NCBI GenBank assembly: GCA_946480705.1 | Contig: CAMLLF010000032.1 | Coordinates: forward strand, 1-12,726 | Direction: 5' to 3' | Origin: an uncultured Lysobacteraceae bacterium | GTDB lineage: Bacteria > Pseudomonadota > Gammaproteobacteria > Xanthomonadales > Rhodanobacteraceae | DNA length: 12,726 nt | Shown here: piece after piece, positions 1-5,175 of the stretch | How positions within the stretch are numbered: the stretch's first letter is position 1 | How the letters are laid out: every line of letters begins with the position of its first letter | Program-made: the position numbers and the translations under genes | The notes under the pieces: generated by a model | Told to the model about the DNA's origin: nothing | What the model saw: the letters and a program-made list of their open reading frames with translations, nothing else | The model's database searches: none

Positions 1-1166
1 CCTGCGTCGTCGAGACCGGCATGCAGGGTCAGGCGCAGCAGCGCGCGGTTCTTCGCCGTGGCCGGCGCGCAGAAGATCGCGCCGAACACGCTCTCGGCTT
101 CGAACGCGTCGCGCACGCGCATGACCGCCGCCTCGCTGCCGACTTCGAGCGCGATGATCTGCTCGGTGCCTTCGCCGATCGGATAGCCCAGGCCGAGCAG
201 CGCTTCGCGCACGCGCCGCGTGACGTACTGCAGCCGCGCGCGGCGCCAGCCTTCGCGCCGGATCACGCGATGCGAGGCGTCCACGGCGGCGATTTCCTGC
301 GGCAGCAGCGTCGAGGAGAAGATGGCCGGCATCGATTCGAACGCGAAGTAGGGCTTGAAGCGCGTGCTGCAGCTGATCAGGCCCGCACGCACGCAATAGG
401 CCTTGGCCAGGCTCGCGGTGACGAAATGCACGCGATCGGTAAGGCCGAGGCTCGCGACCAGGCCTTCGCCATGCACGCCGTGCGTGCCGATCGAGTGCGA
501 CTCGTCGACGACGAACACGCAGCTGCGGCGCTGTGCGATCGCGGCAAAGTCCGCGAGCGGGCAGACGCTGCCGTTGGTGCTGTAGATCGAGTCGACGAGG
601 ATGACGCCGGGGCCGTGACGCAGGATCTGGCGTTCGAGGTACTCCGGATCGTTGTGGTAGACCGGCACGGCCTGCGCGCCGGCGGCCTTGATGCCTTCCC
701 ACAGCGACGCATGCGCGAGCATGTCGATGTAGACCGGCGTGCGCTCGCCGGCCAGGCATTGCACGAGGCCGACGTTCGCGACGTAGCCGGACTGGCACAG
801 GATGGTCTCCTCGCTGCCGAGCGCGACGGCGAGCTCATGTTCGACCTGATGCATCGGATCGTCGTCCTGCTGCAGGAACAGGCCGGACATCATGTTGCCG
901 TTGCCGGCACTCGCGAGCGCGGCGCGCTGCGCGTCGACGATTTCCGGGTGGCGCCCCAGCGCCAGATAGTCGTTGCTCTGCAGCATCAGCGCGCCGGGAG
1001 CCGGGCGCAGGCCGCGAAGGATATGGCGGCCGCTCCAGCTTGCCTGGACGCGGTCCTGATGGAAGCGCTCGACGCGCTGGCGCGCGAATTCCGGCAGTTC
1101 GGGCGCACGCGCCTGCTGCAGCTGCGGAAAGGACGAAGTAACGACGGACGGGAAGGAAATACTCAT
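1..1166 (-). CDS. cqsA: Alpha-hydroxyketone quorum-sensing autoinducer synthase, CqsA/LqsA family (3' end outside window)
   Basis: PLP-dependent alpha-oxoamine synthase-type enzyme. Family members condense an acyl-CoA with a small amino acid or SAM-derived substrate to give a CAI-1/LAI-1-type alpha-hydroxyketone signal in the cytoplasm. The window holds 388 codons from ATG 1166. Visible motifs are QSNDYLAL (63-70), the PLP-binding DESHSIGTHG (221-230, Asp221), the Schiff-base lysine in ASLAKAY (Lys255) and AIFSSTLLP (281-289). From memory, these and the flanking blocks VDSIYST and GLTDRVHF match Vibrio cholerae CqsA closely, and much better than KBL or BioF. Relative to that protein the N-terminus is about 20 residues longer, and about 30 C-terminal residues lie beyond base 1. 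It is the last gene of a sensor-regulator-synthase set, 135 bases after the regulator gene. The cqsA versus lqsA name is a matter of convention; the product molecule cannot be read from sequence. Confidence 0.93.
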   Translation of the reverse strand, partial: MSISFPSVVTSSFPQLQQARAPELPEFARQRVERFHQDRVQASWSGRHILRGLRPAPGALMLQSNDYLALGRHPEIVDAQRAALASAGNGNMMSGLFLQQDDDPMHQVEHELAVALGSEETILCQSGYVANVGLVQCLAGERTPVYIDMLAHASLWEGIKAAGAQAVPVYHNDPEYLERQILRHGPGVILVDSIYSTNGSVCPLADFAAIAQRRSCVFVVDESHSIGTHGVHGEGLVASLGLTDRVHFVTASLAKAYCVRAGLISCSTRFKPYFAFESMPAIFSSTLLPQEIAAVDASHRVIRREGWRRARLQYVTRRVREALLGLGYPIGEGTEQIIALEVGSEAAVMRVRDAFEAESVFGAIFCAPATAKNRALLRLTLHAGLDDA

Positions 1167-1175
1167 GACTGCAAA

Positions 1176-1181
1176 CCTCTC
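1176..1181 (-). promoter_or_regulatory. Ribosome binding site of the autoinducer synthase gene
   Basis: GAGAGG on the minus strand lies 9 bases before ATG 1166. It supports that start and independent translation of the synthase from the rest of the cluster. Confidence 0.55.
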
Positions 1182-1199
1182 ACGGGAGTTGTGGACCAA

Positions 1200-1268
1200 A
1201 GCCATCCCTGGCTGGCTGCGGCGTTTCGTCGCCGCAGCGGGACGACCGGTCCGGCCGTGGGCCGGTCG
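1200..1268 (-). promoter_or_regulatory. Stacked inverted repeats in the regulator-synthase spacer
   Basis: The 135-base spacer between the regulator stop and the synthase start holds three inverted repeats. CGACCGG at 1243-1249 pairs with CCGGTCG at 1262-1268. A perfect 9-bp stem GCTGCGGCG/CGCCGCAGC (1215-1223 with 1230-1238) has a 6-base loop. A 5-bp stem AGCCA/TGGCT at 1200-1213 shows GGGA in its loop on the minus strand. None is followed by a T tract, so this is not a clear intrinsic terminator. An attenuating or RNA-binding-protein-responsive leader of the synthase gene is an inference only. Confidence 0.45.
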
Positions 1269-1301
1269 GAATCGAGAGGTTTCGTTACCGCTGGCGCCGG
1301 A

Positions 1302-2327
1302 TCACCCCGCGCGAGGCGGGGCGTCGACGTTGTCCTGCTCGCGCAGCCAGCTTCTGTACGACTTCACATGAGTCAGCTGCAGCGGTTCGAGATGGTCGAT
1401 AAGACTGAAGTAGTAGCAATTGTCGCCCTGTATCGCCGTGGCCGGGAACAGATTCGCCGCAGGGTCGGCGATCTGCGGGCTGTAGAAGCCGCCCGAGGAC
1501 CAGAACCAGGGAAGGGCGCTGCCGGAGCGCAGCGCGCGCAAGACGGTATCGGGCGCGCCGCGGTCTTCCGCGACGTCGTGTTGTTCGCGCAGATCGTCGT
1601 CGGTCTGCACGAGAAGGAACCTGCCCACACCCCAGGCGTCGAGCATCAGCACGCCCGTGGGATTGCAGACCACGTACGACTCGATCGGCTGGAACGTGGC
1701 GACGACAGAGTCGAATACCGAACGGAAAGCGGGGTCGCGCAGAAAGCCGAAACGTCCCATCGCCAGCGCTTCGGCCACGAACGCGCCGGCGCGCTCGAAA
1801 TACCGCTGCTGCAGTTCGCGGATGGCGACCTGGAGCTTGGCCATGGCCTGCGGATCGCTCTTGCGGATGAAGCGGTCGATGACGCCCGAATTGAAGGCCT
1901 CGATCGCGACCGAATCCTCGGCGCGGCCGGTCAGCAGTATCTTGCCGATCAGTGGATTGTTGAGCCGTTTGCAAAACGTGACACCGTCCATCTCCGGCAT
2001 GAAGTAATCGACCACGAGCACGGAGACTTCGGAAAAACGCTCGGGGTCATAGACAATGCGGTGGATCGAGTCGACATCAAGAGCGACGAGCTCCTGGGTC
2101 TGCGACGGACGGTCCTTCCAGCGGTAGAGCCAGCCGCCGCCCGGCACCGGGCGGCTGCCCGCGCTGCCGAGCGCGGCCAGCGCCATGCGTGGCGAGCTGA
2201 ACGGGCGCAGATGCAGCATCGGATCGAGCATCAGCGGCACGACGTCGAGGTATTCCTCGTGATCGTCGACGAGGACGGTCGTCGTCGGGAAATAGAACGG
2301 CGGGATCGCAGCGGCACCTCGCAGCAT
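1302..2327 (-). CDS. lqsR: LqsR-like response regulator of the alpha-hydroxyketone signalling cluster
   Basis: A 341-residue response regulator. The receiver shows the acidic pair Asp21-Asp22, phosphoacceptor Asp107 in VLVVDYFMPEMDG, Thr133 in LLTGRA and Lys156 in FIRKSD. The distance from the acidic pair to the phosphoacceptor is about 85 residues, roughly 40 more than in CheY-type receivers; the extra segment covers about residues 45-98. From memory, the phosphorylated aspartate of Legionella LqsR is at nearly the same position (108). Residues about 180-341 form an output region in which I see no helix-turn-helix, GGDEF, EAL or HD signature. The start ATG overlaps the kinase stop by one base (TGATG) and has a strong GGAGGG site 7 bases upstream (2335-2340), so translation is probably coupled. 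The likely role is to receive phosphate from the adjacent kinase. The LqsR name rests on context, receiver layout and the non-canonical output region. Confidence 0.8.
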   Translation of the reverse strand: MLRGAAAIPPFYFPTTTVLVDDHEEYLDVVPLMLDPMLHLRPFSSPRMALAALGSAGSRPVPGGGWLYRWKDRPSQTQELVALDVDSIHRIVYDPERFSEVSVLVVDYFMPEMDGVTFCKRLNNPLIGKILLTGRAEDSVAIEAFNSGVIDRFIRKSDPQAMAKLQVAIRELQQRYFERAGAFVAEALAMGRFGFLRDPAFRSVFDSVVATFQPIESYVVCNPTGVLMLDAWGVGRFLLVQTDDDLREQHDVAEDRGAPDTVLRALRSGSALPWFWSSGGFYSPQIADPAANLFPATAIQGDNCYYFSLIDHLEPLQLTHVKSYRSWLREQDNVDAPPRAG

Positions 2328-3697
2328 CAGTTGTCCCTCCGCAGGAGGTCGGGAAACACGATCGTGAATTCGGTGAATTCGCCGTAGGTCGAGCGGCAGA
2401 TTATCGTCGCGCCCATGCGTTCGAGCGCCATGCGTACGAAGGATAGACCGACGCCGAGGCCGGTGCTGTAGTCGGTGGCGCTGGAATAGAAGCGCTCGAA
2501 GATGTGCGGCAGGACGTCCGGCTGAATGCCGGGGCCGCTGTCGTGACAGACGACACGTTGGCCTCCTTCGTCGGCGTGGACGCTGAGCACGATGCTGCCC
2601 TTGCCGGCGCGTCCAGTGTGGAATAAGGCATTTTTTATCAGATTGAACAGCACATGGACCAGCAGCAGGCGCGATCCGCTGAACTGGAAGTCGTCGGCGA
2701 CGCCGATCGCGACGCGGCTGCGCTCATGTTGCGAGCCGAACGGGTAGCGGTCCAGTGCCTCGAGCACGCATTCGCGCGCCGACACGCTTTCGATCTGCAG
2801 GCTGCCGATCGGGCGCGCGGCGACGAGCAGCATGTCGATGACGGTGTTGGCGTGCTCGACCTCCCGGCCGATGGTCTCCATGGCCTTGGACAGGCGGCCC
2901 AACTGCGATTCGCGCAGTTCCGGCACATTGAGCTGAGCGTCGACCGCCTTGCGGTGCGAGTCGGCGAGCAGCGGCAGAAAGCGGTCGACCGCCTGGGTGG
3001 CGATGCGCACCGAGGCGAGCGGCGTACGCAGCTCGTGGGCGATGTTGTTGCTCGCGGCGATGATCGCGTCGATGCGCGCCTGGTTGCTCATGCTGTGCGA
3101 AATACTGAATACCGAACCGGAAATGATCGCGAAGGCCCAGACCGGCGAATACGCCAGCAGGGCGGCGCTCGCCAGCGGCTGCGCCGGCGCGATCAGGTAG
3201 GCGGTCACAGCAAGCAGCGTGCCGATCAGCCCGGTGATGATGAAGCTGCCCATGTCGAACAGCATGACCATGAGGAACACGGAAATCAGATGCGACAGCA
3301 GCCAGGCGACGCTGCCGCCGTTCTGCAGCAGCATGTACGAAAAGAAAAAAGGCAGCGCGAAGGTCATCGCGAGATACCAGTACAGCGGCAGCCACGCGCG
3401 CAGTCGGTTCGGCCACAGGCTGACGAGCATCAGCGGCAGGAACAGCAGCGAGCCGAACAGACGCAGCTCCAGACTTTCGTAGGGCTGCGGCAGCAGCTTC
3501 GCCCAGACGAAGTAGTAGGTCGGAAAGCCGAACACGCCGAGCGCGCCCATCCAGCGCATCTTCGGCTCGGAATAGCGTGCACGCGTGAAGATCGCCGTCT
3601 GGAAACGCAGCCAGGCACGCTTGAGATGCCACCAGACGAGCCGCGGCACCCCATTGATGCGGCGGCCTGCGGTATGGATAGCCTCACTCGTATTCAT
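2327..3697 (-). CDS. lqsS: Six-helix membrane sensor histidine kinase, CqsS/LqsS family
   Basis: A 456-residue sensor kinase in the inner membrane. About six hydrophobic helices fall at residues 50-67, 78-95, 101-122, 129-147, 151-171 and 177-199. They are followed by the H-box IAHELRTPL (His221), N-box LFNLIKNAL (Asn352, Asn356), G1 DSGPG (386-390), F-box IFERFY and G2 GLGVGL (413-418). The segment YSEP..GFPTYYFVW..PQPYESL (42-76) matches, from memory, the start of the Vibrio CqsS sensor domain, and ALPFFFSYML matches its third helix region. There is no fused receiver, as in Legionella LqsS and unlike CqsS. The likely ligand is the hydroxyketone made by the neighbouring synthase, and the likely phosphate acceptor is the overlapping response regulator. 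The frame stays open to 3853, but the upstream part is arginine-rich and unlike CqsS, so ATG 3697 is chosen; its ribosome site is weak. Confidence 0.88.
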   Translation of the reverse strand: MNTSEAIHTAGRRINGVPRLVWWHLKRAWLRFQTAIFTRARYSEPKMRWMGALGVFGFPTYYFVWAKLLPQPYESLELRLFGSLLFLPLMLVSLWPNRLRAWLPLYWYLAMTFALPFFFSYMLLQNGGSVAWLLSHLISVFLMVMLFDMGSFIITGLIGTLLAVTAYLIAPAQPLASAALLAYSPVWAFAIISGSVFSISHSMSNQARIDAIIAASNNIAHELRTPLASVRIATQAVDRFLPLLADSHRKAVDAQLNVPELRESQLGRLSKAMETIGREVEHANTVIDMLLVAARPIGSLQIESVSARECVLEALDRYPFGSQHERSRVAIGVADDFQFSGSRLLLVHVLFNLIKNALFHTGRAGKGSIVLSVHADEGGQRVVCHDSGPGIQPDVLPHIFERFYSSATDYSTGLGVGLSFVRMALERMGATIICRSTYGEFTEFTIVFPDLLRRDN

Positions 3698-3895
3698 GCG
3701 CGCCCGGGCAATGCGACGCCGTCGGCGCGGCGCCGGTCTCGTGAACGGCTTCGATACTAGTGGAATTGCGTCGATCTGGGGCGAGTGTGCAATCGTGCGC
3801 GTCGATACGATGTCGCAGTCCGGCCGGCGCGGCGCGCTCGATCGCGCCGGCATCCGCGTGCGCCGGCGTCGAGAATGAATCGCTTACTGTCTGAT
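3698..3895. other. Gene-free spacer upstream of the quorum-sensing cluster
   Basis: 198 bases between the cytochrome gene stop and the kinase start, presumably holding the cluster's promoter. I see no convincing -35/-10 pair. The only structure is a GC-rich inverted repeat, CGCCGGC 3845-3851 with GCCGGCG 3862-3868, lying 27-50 bases after the cytochrome stop. It has no T tract and may help end transcription of that gene. Confidence 0.4.
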
Positions 3896-4285
3896 TCAGC
3901 GATAGTCGCGATGGCAGTCCTTGCAGGCGTTGCCGATCTGCTGCATCGCCGCGTCGAGCGCGCGGCAGTCGGCCGGCGGCTCGGCGCCGAGGCGGGCACC
4001 GAGTTCGATGAAGCGCCGCGCCTGGTCGTGGTAGTCGGGCTTTTCATCAGGACGGGAAGGGCCGATGTCGGCCGCGGTCTCGGCCAGGCGGCGAAAGCGC
4101 GGAGCGCTGCGTGCCGCGGTGCAGTCGCCGCTGCGCTGCTGCCGGCGCAGTTCGTCGAGATGGTGCTGCAGAATGTGCATCACGCCGCGCTGCCAGGCGT
4201 TGCGCTGCGACAGCGCGTTGGCTGCGCTGAACGCGACGAGGGCGCCGATGAACAGGCCGGCGAGCAGGGACAGCAACAGGCGCAT
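3896..4285 (-). CDS. Cytochrome c'-like class II c-type cytochrome
   Basis: A 129-residue protein with a hydrophobic N-terminal segment (residues 2-24) that acts as an export signal or anchor. It has a single haem-binding CxxCH (CKDCH, about residues 122-126) right at the C-terminus. A small helical protein with the haem motif at its very end is the arrangement of class II cytochromes c (cytochrome c' and c556), which are four-helix periplasmic proteins. Family roles include electron transfer or binding of NO and other small ligands; neither can be chosen here. ATG 4283-4285 has GGAA close upstream. The gene is on the same strand as the quorum-sensing genes but 198 bases away, so co-transcription is uncertain. 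It is divergent from tcdA. Confidence 0.75.
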   Translation of the reverse strand: MRLLLSLLAGLFIGALVAFSAANALSQRNAWQRGVMHILQHHLDELRRQQRSGDCTAARSAPRFRRLAETAADIGPSRPDEKPDYHDQARRFIELGARLGAEPPADCRALDAAMQQIGNACKDCHRDYR

Positions 4286-4365
4286 CGTCGTTTCCGTGTC
4301 AAAACCGCAAGCCTAATGCAGACCGCCCGGCGCCAGAAGCCGTCGGTCACGCGCGCGGGGACGCC

Positions 4366-4374
4366 TGCTAGAAT
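4366..4374 (+). promoter_or_regulatory. Extended -10 promoter of tcdA, probably giving a leaderless mRNA
   Basis: TGCTAGAAT fits the extended -10 pattern TGnTAnAAT. Its 3' end is 6 bases before ATG 4381, so transcription would begin at or next to the start codon. No Shine-Dalgarno sequence precedes that ATG, which fits a leaderless message. Confidence 0.5.
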
Positions 4375-4380
4375 CCGCCG

Positions 4381-5175
4381 ATGTCCGATCCCGTTCTCTC
4401 GGCGCGCTTCGGCGGCGTCGACCGTCTTTACGGCCGCGGTGCGGCGCAGCGTCTGTCCACGCGTCACGTCGCCGTCGTCGGCGTCGGCGGCGTGGGTTCC
4501 TGGAGCGTCGAGGCGCTGGTCCGAAGCGGCGTCGGCGAATTCACGCTGATCGATGCGGACGACGTCTGCGTGTCGAACACGAATCGTCAGTTGCATGCGC
4601 TGGAGGGCCAGTTCGGCCGCGCCAAGGTCGACGTGCTCGCCGAACGCGCCCGCGCGATCAATCCACAGGTCCGCGTCCACGCGATTCCGAGTTTCCTGAC
4701 GCCGTCCACTCTCGGCGAACTGCTCGACCGCGGCTACGACCTCGTGCTCGACGCCTGCGACAGCTTTCGCGTCAAGGTCGAGATGATCGCCTGGTGCCGG
4801 CGCCGCAAGCTGCCGTTGATCGTGGTCGGTTCCGCCGGCGGGCGCATCGACGCGTCGCGCGTGCAGGTGCGCGACCTGTCGCGCACGGAACACGATGCGC
4901 TGCTGTCGCTGGTGCGCAAGAAACTGCGGCAGGAGTTCAACTTTCCGCGCAATCGCGATCGGTATTTCAGCGTGCCGGCCGTGTTTTCGCTCGAGAACGT
5001 GCGCTACCCGCAGGCCGACGGCAGCGTCTGCGGCACGCGTCCGGCCAACGCCGACGAAGCGATGCGGCTGGACTGCGGCAGCGGGCTCGGCGCCGCGATG
5101 CACGTGACCGCGACGTTCGGCATGGTAGCCGCGGGCAAGGCGATCGAGCGCCTGCTTGCGCCCGACCCGGCTTGA
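4381..5175 (+). CDS. tcdA: tRNA threonylcarbamoyladenosine dehydratase TcdA
   Basis: A 264-residue E1-like (ThiF/MoeB/HesA superfamily) enzyme. In the known family it uses ATP to cyclise the threonylcarbamoyl group at tRNA A37 (t6A to ct6A) in the cytoplasm. Visible features are the ATP-binding GVGGVGSW (34-41), the acidic stretch LIDADDV (57-62), NRQ (68-70) with the following Gly-Arg-Ala-Lys (79-82), and the TcdA-like blocks DACDSFRVKV and VGSAGG. Full length matches E. coli TcdA (formerly CsdL/YgdL). It has no rhodanese extension, which helps exclude MoeB/ThiF proteins. Translation seems leaderless. The gene is followed after 61 bases by a small membrane-protein gene with its own possible promoter. 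Confidence 0.93.
   Translation: MSDPVLSARFGGVDRLYGRGAAQRLSTRHVAVVGVGGVGSWSVEALVRSGVGEFTLIDADDVCVSNTNRQLHALEGQFGRAKVDVLAERARAINPQVRVHAIPSFLTPSTLGELLDRGYDLVLDACDSFRVKVEMIAWCRRRKLPLIVVGSAGGRIDASRVQVRDLSRTEHDALLSLVRKKLRQEFNFPRNRDRYFSVPAVFSLENVRYPQADGSVCGTRPANADEAMRLDCGSGLGAAMHVTATFGMVAAGKAIERLLAPDPA

Follow-up and report, generated by a model that had tools for sequence, protein, structure and literature searches.

The DNA considered here, 12,726 nucleotides (nt) from an uncultured Lysobacteraceae bacterium (contig CAMLLF010000032.1; its full length is called the window), carries on its minus strand three genes transcribed in the order sensor kinase, response regulator and pyridoxal-phosphate-dependent synthase. 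I propose that these probably form a complete Lqs-type alpha-hydroxyketone (AHK) circuit in a Tahibacter-like bacterium, in which translation of the synthase is limited as well by a leader RNA that hides its Shine-Dalgarno (SD) sequence. The gene set itself is not new. What is new is the arrangement of all three genes in one direction, together with a covarying synthase leader that is predicted to hide the SD. Most of what is known of AHK signalling comes from Vibrio and Legionella, and if the leader gates translation, then in this class of circuit RNA would share with cell density the control of signal production.

Then there is the question of what the synthase is. Against the NCBIfam AHK-synthase model NF005526 it scores 531.8 bits, over a cut-off of 428, and it matches the solved structure of CAI-1 autoinducer synthase, 3hqt, with an E-value of 3.5e-97. 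BioF and Kbl, biosynthetic enzymes, belong to the same fold family, and the bioF model reaches 218.2 bits; were the synthase one of them, there would be no signalling system to discuss. However, that score lies below the bioF cut-off of 426.45, a tree splits 38 AHK rows from 15 BioF/Kbl paralogues (branch SH-aLRT 100; this tree and the regulator tree are quick ones, with long branches flagged and loci duplicating a genome left out), and in 30 of 30 family genomes the synthase is accompanied by the regulator. A BioF/Kbl enzyme is at odds with family models, structures and tree alike; I consider it extremely improbable, and judged by its sequence the synthase is of AHK type. The edge of the window at base 1 cuts its 3' end, leaving 388 of 428 residues. 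The full-length protein (P0060, 428 residues, in the protein database) stands on a contig of 61,207 bases, so the window comes from a longer record.

The regulator (ATG 2327-2325, stop 1304-1302) aligns over residues 7-332 with the solved LqsR structure 6sy9 (E 7e-53), the C-terminal output domain included, and in model searches LqsR comes out on top, followed by receiver domains. Its D21, D22, D107, T133 and K156, residues with phosphorylation roles in receiver domains, are invariant across 22 rows. The kinase has HisKA and HATPase_c as its only Pfam domains, behind a hydrophobic N-terminal sensor (several hydrophobic stretches before residue 205 in a hydropathy scan, the sole topology check), and its phospho-His is residue 221. 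It contains the motif YY..W....PQPYE.L.LR, common to Vibrio and Legionella-type sensors. No receiver domain was matched in the 508-codon kinase reading frame scanned, unlike hybrid CqsS of Vibrio, which has a fused one. The start of the kinase is a choice, in that the frame is open as far as 3853 (508 codons). I take the ATG at 3697 (stop 2329-2327): the kinase of Tahibacter caeni can be aligned only from residue 53 of the long frame, and every extracted Tahibacter-type kinase has 456 residues from the ATG that matches 3697.

An initial annotation of this DNA had read the three genes in much the same way, and most of what it claimed holds up: three minus-strand genes in the order given, kinase and regulator overlapping (by 1 nt), an AHK-type synthase that the tree does not place with AONS/KBL enzymes, a non-hybrid LqsS/CqsS-type kinase and an LqsR-type regulator. 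Its guess at a Xanthomonadales-type host was also right, because Tahibacter is a genus of the Rhodanobacteraceae, a family that present NCBI naming puts in the order Lysobacterales. Among the best 80 of 208 relatives kept in a scan of genome contigs, the nearest named genome is that of T. caeni, with identities of 96% for the regulator, 91% for the kinase and 85% for the synthase, and with the same gene order from ygfZ to the synthase. The system had further been called self-contained, and as to the sensor this agrees with what was found: every one of 27 genomes with the cluster has exactly one match, and 5 genomes with an empty locus have none. A second, orphan sensor resembling LqsT was not seen in these 32 genomes.

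I infer the following course of events. The synthase would make an alpha-hydroxyketone or an amino-ketone, which the membrane kinase would sense, passing phosphate to the LqsR-type regulator. In the leader of the synthase mRNA, a 5' arm would hide the ribosome-binding site and so limit translation, until the fold is shifted, by an RNA-binding regulator (in the window's lineage CsrA is the likeliest, at a conserved ANGGA) or by some other signal.

The leader is best introduced by the gap it occupies, between regulator and synthase, which is strikingly conserved within Tahibacter. The sequence AAACCTCTCG in the 5' part of the gap is complementary to TGAGAGGTTT, about 100 bases downstream, and hairpins lie between them. 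In the window, the helix that would hide the SD has p values of 0.015 and 0.02 when the sequence upstream is shuffled, the leader stretch is more stable than 199 out of 200 shuffled versions of it (z -2.68), and the SD region (-16 to -7) has a mean pairing probability of 0.94, or 0.90 when the partner must lie more than 60 nt upstream. No part of this structured leader of 135 nt figured in the initial annotation.

The window is not alone in this. With the SD fixed and the upstream bases of the whole gap shuffled, an SD-hiding helix is found at p<=0.05 in 22 of 35 family synthase leaders (start codons of L176, L206 and L207 set by hand). With a fixed upstream length the count is 18 of 35, and the controls treated the same way give none among 22 kinase starts, one among 20 tcdA starts and one among 14 outgroup synthases. 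Pairing probabilities were computed for 19 of the 35 leaders, and in these the SD region averages between 0.60 and 0.97. The two arms change jointly from lineage to lineage, reading CTCTCTCGTT/AACGAGAGAG in some Luteibacter and ACTCTTTCG/CGAGAGAGT in L206.

Covariation supports the base pairs of the leader. Among 8 Tahibacter-type leaders, both sides have changed at 5 pairs, as against 2.1 in shuffles (3 of 500 as high), and the covariation score is reached by 1 shuffle in 500. A covariance model built from these 8, the window included (model R2; it has one pair, columns 22 and 117, beyond the structure counted), gives the window leader 136 bits as one of its own building sequences. It also finds in the right place two Mizugakiibacter-type synthase leaders outside its building set (L105/L205 and L106; E-values 4.5e-5 and 7e-4), and over 36 sources it makes no match up to E 1 beyond these two and the window. 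When the two are added, in an alignment of 10 leaders fitted to the structure (A6), both sides have changed at 13 pairs, as against 4.7 in shuffles, and the score is 0.220 against 0.095, reached by 0 of 500. Helix 2 of A6 has 92.2% of its cells paired and both-side changes at 3 pairs; in helix 4 both sides have changed in at least one sequence at all 7 pairs. A scan of 197 genomes with R2 matched only the 7 Tahibacter leaders used in building it. Under its stricter filters that scan overlooked G016 and G041, although R2 recognises both leaders when they are supplied directly, so the absence of the leader elsewhere is weakly tested.

The Luteibacter leader has diverged, but it too has an SD helix, two hairpins and, across 23 leaders, a pseudoknot in which a GGGCGA loop pairs with TCGCCC, with 89.4% of cells paired and both-side changes at 2 of 7 pairs. 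In these 23 leaders 16 pairs have changed on both sides, as against 8.7 in shuffles, and the score is 0.199 against 0.145, with 0 of 500 shuffles reaching it and six slides all lower. The Luteibacter model, R1, scores at least 75 bits in 18 family genomes, each time directly before the synthase; these 18 are among the sequences from which it was built, and the next best of the 42 matches listed has 32.4 bits. The 24 weak matches in the 197 genomes (23-32 bits) I take as background. On 40 sources R1 makes 13 matches up to E 1, the best of which (22.1 bits, L113) falls within the kinase gene, and I ascribe it to chance; a weak match, 17.2 bits and E 0.067, falls at the L106 synthase leader.

One might object that the AHK cluster is an ordinary one and the gap a DNA element, an operator palindrome or a promoter, in which any pairing is incidental. 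Such gaps are the usual place for promoters, and this one does contain near-palindromes, such as GACCGG...CCGGTC. Against a DNA element stand changes on both sides of 13 pairs where shuffles give 4.7, a complementarity that extends into the SD and changes with the SD between lineages, and the near absence of such pairing at kinase and tcdA starts. I regard this explanation as unlikely.

A different objection accepts the RNA and makes it a metabolite riboswitch, responding to S-adenosylmethionine (SAM), to acyl-CoA or to the AHK product. SAM and decanoyl-CoA are used by CqsA (PMC3376566), the SD is sequestered, Luteibacter has its pseudoknot, and the strong matches of R1 stand solely in front of the synthase gene. 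If so, the leader would be a new class of metabolite-sensing RNA gating a quorum signal at translation, the Rhodanobacteraceae would meter their census signal by metabolic state, and their Dyella-type relatives would keep a receiver without a transmitter. This seems to me quite unlikely. R1 and R2 miss each other's leaders, so no common ligand pocket is evident, and at gathering score no Rfam family matches the window (in 7 relatives, two matches below threshold, both outside the leader).

Several observations count against an SD-hiding leader as I propose it. The lowest-energy fold of the 146-nt window leader lacks the SD helix; the centroid has it and lies 1.1 kcal/mol away. Of the 35 leaders, 13 lie above p 0.05 in the single-sequence helix test, and L207 has no such helix; the SD of L106 pairs with far-upstream bases at a probability of only 0.25; and the distance of the anti-SD arm varies, from -96 to -169. 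R2 matches none of the 5 Luteibacter loci given to it, nor L206 or L207, and none of the 13 R1 matches is in a Tahibacter leader. The A6 alignment was fitted to the very structure that it tests, and the leader sequences are related, so their counts are not independent. Because shuffles keep shared ancestry, the case rests on covariation taken together with the slides, the unprompted matches and the negative controls. Finally, there is no excess of ANGGA in Luteibacter, where 3 of 23 leaders have it and 2.8 are expected.

This last count bears on what might move the leader. ANGGA is found in 12 of 12 non-Luteibacter leaders, where 2.9 are expected, 11 of them having it 32-46 bases before the start and L207 only at -102. 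The full form CANGGANG is present in 6 of the 12 (expected 0.5). These motif forms I take to be CsrA-type, and all 9 genomes tested have a csrA gene. In L. pneumophila CsrA binds and represses lqsR mRNA at A(N)GGA sites near the start (PMC5338858), so that control of the synthase by CsrA is a natural guess in the window's lineage, with a metabolite or a small RNA as alternatives; the target there is the mRNA of the regulator, whereas the candidate site here is in the synthase leader. CsrA is not the general effector, as ANGGA is not enriched in Luteibacter, and the idea that it serves all lineages was dropped.

Features of the window: coordinates, strand and basis
Feature	Position	Strand	Basis or remark
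AHK autoinducer synthase, CqsA/LqsA type	1..1166	-	NF005526, 3hqt, tree
LqsR-family response regulator, 341 residues	1302..2327	-	full-length match to solved LqsR
LqsS/CqsS-type sensor histidine kinase, 456 residues	2327..3697	-	HisKA and HATPase_c, sensor motif
Structured 5' leader of synthase mRNA, 135 nt	1167..1301	-	covariation, R2 match, helix tests
Anti-Shine-Dalgarno arm AAACCTCTCG	1273..1282	-	pairs with 1173-1182
Shine-Dalgarno arm TGAGAGGTTT	1173..1182	-	6 nt before ATG 1166
Leader hairpin GACCGGCCC...GGACCGGTC	1244..1267	-	helix 2 of A6
Leader hairpin GCTGCGG...CCGCAGC	1215..1238	-	helix 4 of A6
Candidate CsrA-type motif ANGGA (AGGGA) within CAGGGATG	1205..1209	-	kept in the window's lineage
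Conserved block CACTCGCCC...CAATTCCACTAGTATCGA upstream of kinase, candidate promoter/operator	3751..3787	-	alignment
Cytochrome c'-like gene, family core, adjoining kinase	3896..4285	-	judged not part of the system

How widespread is the circuit? Within the Rhodanobacteraceae, an AHK synthase is found in 30 of 197 genomes (one a fragment), all of them among the 43 with an LqsR-type regulator above 200 bits, the threshold that picks these 43 out of the 167 genomes with some match, mostly to receiver domains. It is found in 28 of 398 genomes sampled from the order. The Tahibacter group (8 of 8 genomes, one a fragment) and the Luteibacter group (23 of 23) carry it throughout, so the circuit could be dissected in bacteria outside the pathogens in which it is best known. 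Synthase and regulator share a strand in 22 of 22 family loci examined and are on opposite strands in all 12 outgroup loci with all three genes, which makes the co-directional arrangement a feature of the family among the loci seen. In two genomes of the Luteibacter group a second, divergent AHK synthase was noticed (L204/L097, G024:C3, and L203, G209:C5), with no regulator found beside it.

The site of the cluster lies between a tcdA-cytochrome c' pair and a pair of genes whose proteins, by their sequences, look DUF962-like and pirin-like, and it exists in three states: full, kinase and regulator only, or empty. On a tree of flank proteins from 54 loci (L107, L097, L122-L124, L099 and rows with fewer than 300 filled columns omitted), 21 are full, 10 have kinase and regulator only and 23 are empty; 4 changes of state suffice, as against 24.2 with shuffled labels. 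L125 was scored as full by hand, because the synthase fragment of its genome sits on another contig (G115:C529). One group (support 99), adjoining Luteibacter (support 92), takes in all 10 kinase-and-regulator loci together with 16 empty loci, and the remaining 7 empty loci fall elsewhere. The tree would fit gain or loss; it is read most simply as a loss in steps that began with the synthase, plus at least one more loss elsewhere.

In the regulator tree ten of the synthase-less family loci form one clade (support 98). These are the Dyella-type loci L112-L121 (G099, G019, G087, G058, G071, G008, G007, G073, G044 and G059), and they include Dyella lutea, in whose genome no AHK synthase exceeds the cut-off. 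Going by gene content, this clade may listen without speaking. Relaxed selection on its sensor was considered and not adopted: the medians are 0.24 and 0.09 in its two subclades and 0.07 and 0.10 in the full clades, and as the pairs are few and related I claim nothing beyond a sensor still constrained. The three states make a natural series in which to follow how a circuit decays and whether listening outlives speaking. Apart from this series, L122, L123 and L124 (G205, G202 and G106) have a divergent kinase-regulator pair in a different place, with no synthase; the usual locus of G106 is empty (L126).

The cytochrome c'-like gene adjoins the kinase on the same strand at most cluster loci, and one might suppose that it belongs to the circuit, perhaps as a nitric-oxide input. 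Its protein has CKDCH and scores 25.9 with PF01322, just below the cut-off of 26.5, and the gene lies between tcdA and the cluster site. It is, however, in 172 of the 197 family genomes, mostly without a cluster, where the synthase is in only 30, and it stays beside tcdA in the four empty loci first examined (L126-L129). Membership in the circuit is very unlikely. Between it and the kinase lies the conserved block of the table, largely kept in 7 of 8 aligned Tahibacter-type loci and not in L092. A sigma-70 promoter scan over 1-4500 found none, and terminator-like sites in that range number 3, where 2.4 are expected.

It remains to set the circuit beside those already described. The initial annotation had presented an AHK circuit outside Vibrio and Legionella as news, and in this it was anticipated. 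A 2012 review lists several environmental genera that have lqsA/lqsS clusters, with lqsR in some of these (PMC3376566), Janthinobacterium has jqsA, jqsS and jqsR with functional complementation (PMC3566124), and lqs clusters are described as widespread in Alpha-, Beta- and Gammaproteobacteria (PMC10653808). The Rhodanobacteraceae are not named where these three papers recount such clusters. The open-licence literature yielded nothing linking Tahibacter with quorum sensing and autoinducer, nothing linking Luteibacter with CAI-1 autoinducer synthase and, among the titles listed, nothing on a cqsA/lqsA leader RNA, all of it weak evidence of absence.

Of the known systems, that of Janthinobacterium is like the window's in being a three-gene set outside Vibrio and Legionella, with the difference that its function was tested. 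Janthinobacterium is a betaproteobacterium, and the description of its cluster in PMC3566124 mentions no RNA leader. In L. pneumophila, hdeD lies between the kinase and regulator genes (PMC3376566), whereas the window's three genes all run one way and the kinase and regulator genes overlap and so leave no room for it, and there are two sensors, LqsS and LqsT (PMC10653808), where the window's family has one match per cluster-bearing genome. The window synthase is 44-45% identical to those of two Legionella loci (L016 and L018) and 46.2% identical, over 95% of the query, to that of Vibrio sp. THAF190c. The sensors of this Vibrio and of the window share the motif given above, and both have F 24 residues before the phospho-His, by my own count the position of C170/F175 (PMC3285556). 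Tahibacter has F there and Luteibacter C, from which, by analogy with that paper, Tahibacter would be predicted to prefer a signal with a shorter tail. The Vibrio sensor is a hybrid kinase (681 residues in L170), unlike the window's, and the V. cholerae cluster is described as having no LqsR homologue (PMC3566124), which the window does have. Ralstonia has in PhcX a regulator of the LqsR family, like the window's, but phcX lies by the phc cluster and lqsA is reported lost in all but R. insidiosa (PMC10653808).

A few observations stand apart. Three Legionella genomes (G012, G013 and G014; loci L013, L017 and L020) have lqsR/lqsS-type genes and no AHK synthase above the cut-off. A search of viral contigs gave a single match, to the receiver part only. 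Two AHK-type synthases 57-60% identical to the window's, P0166 and P0172, are filed under Paenarthrobacter and Microbacterium, through transfer or contamination, and P0110, filed as Bacillus sp. NP157, is 67% identical and falls among Luteibacter proteins, its genome being probably mislabelled. On the plus strand of the window, an open frame of 794 codons (3-2387) runs antisense to synthase and regulator; I take it as a G+C-rich shadow frame.

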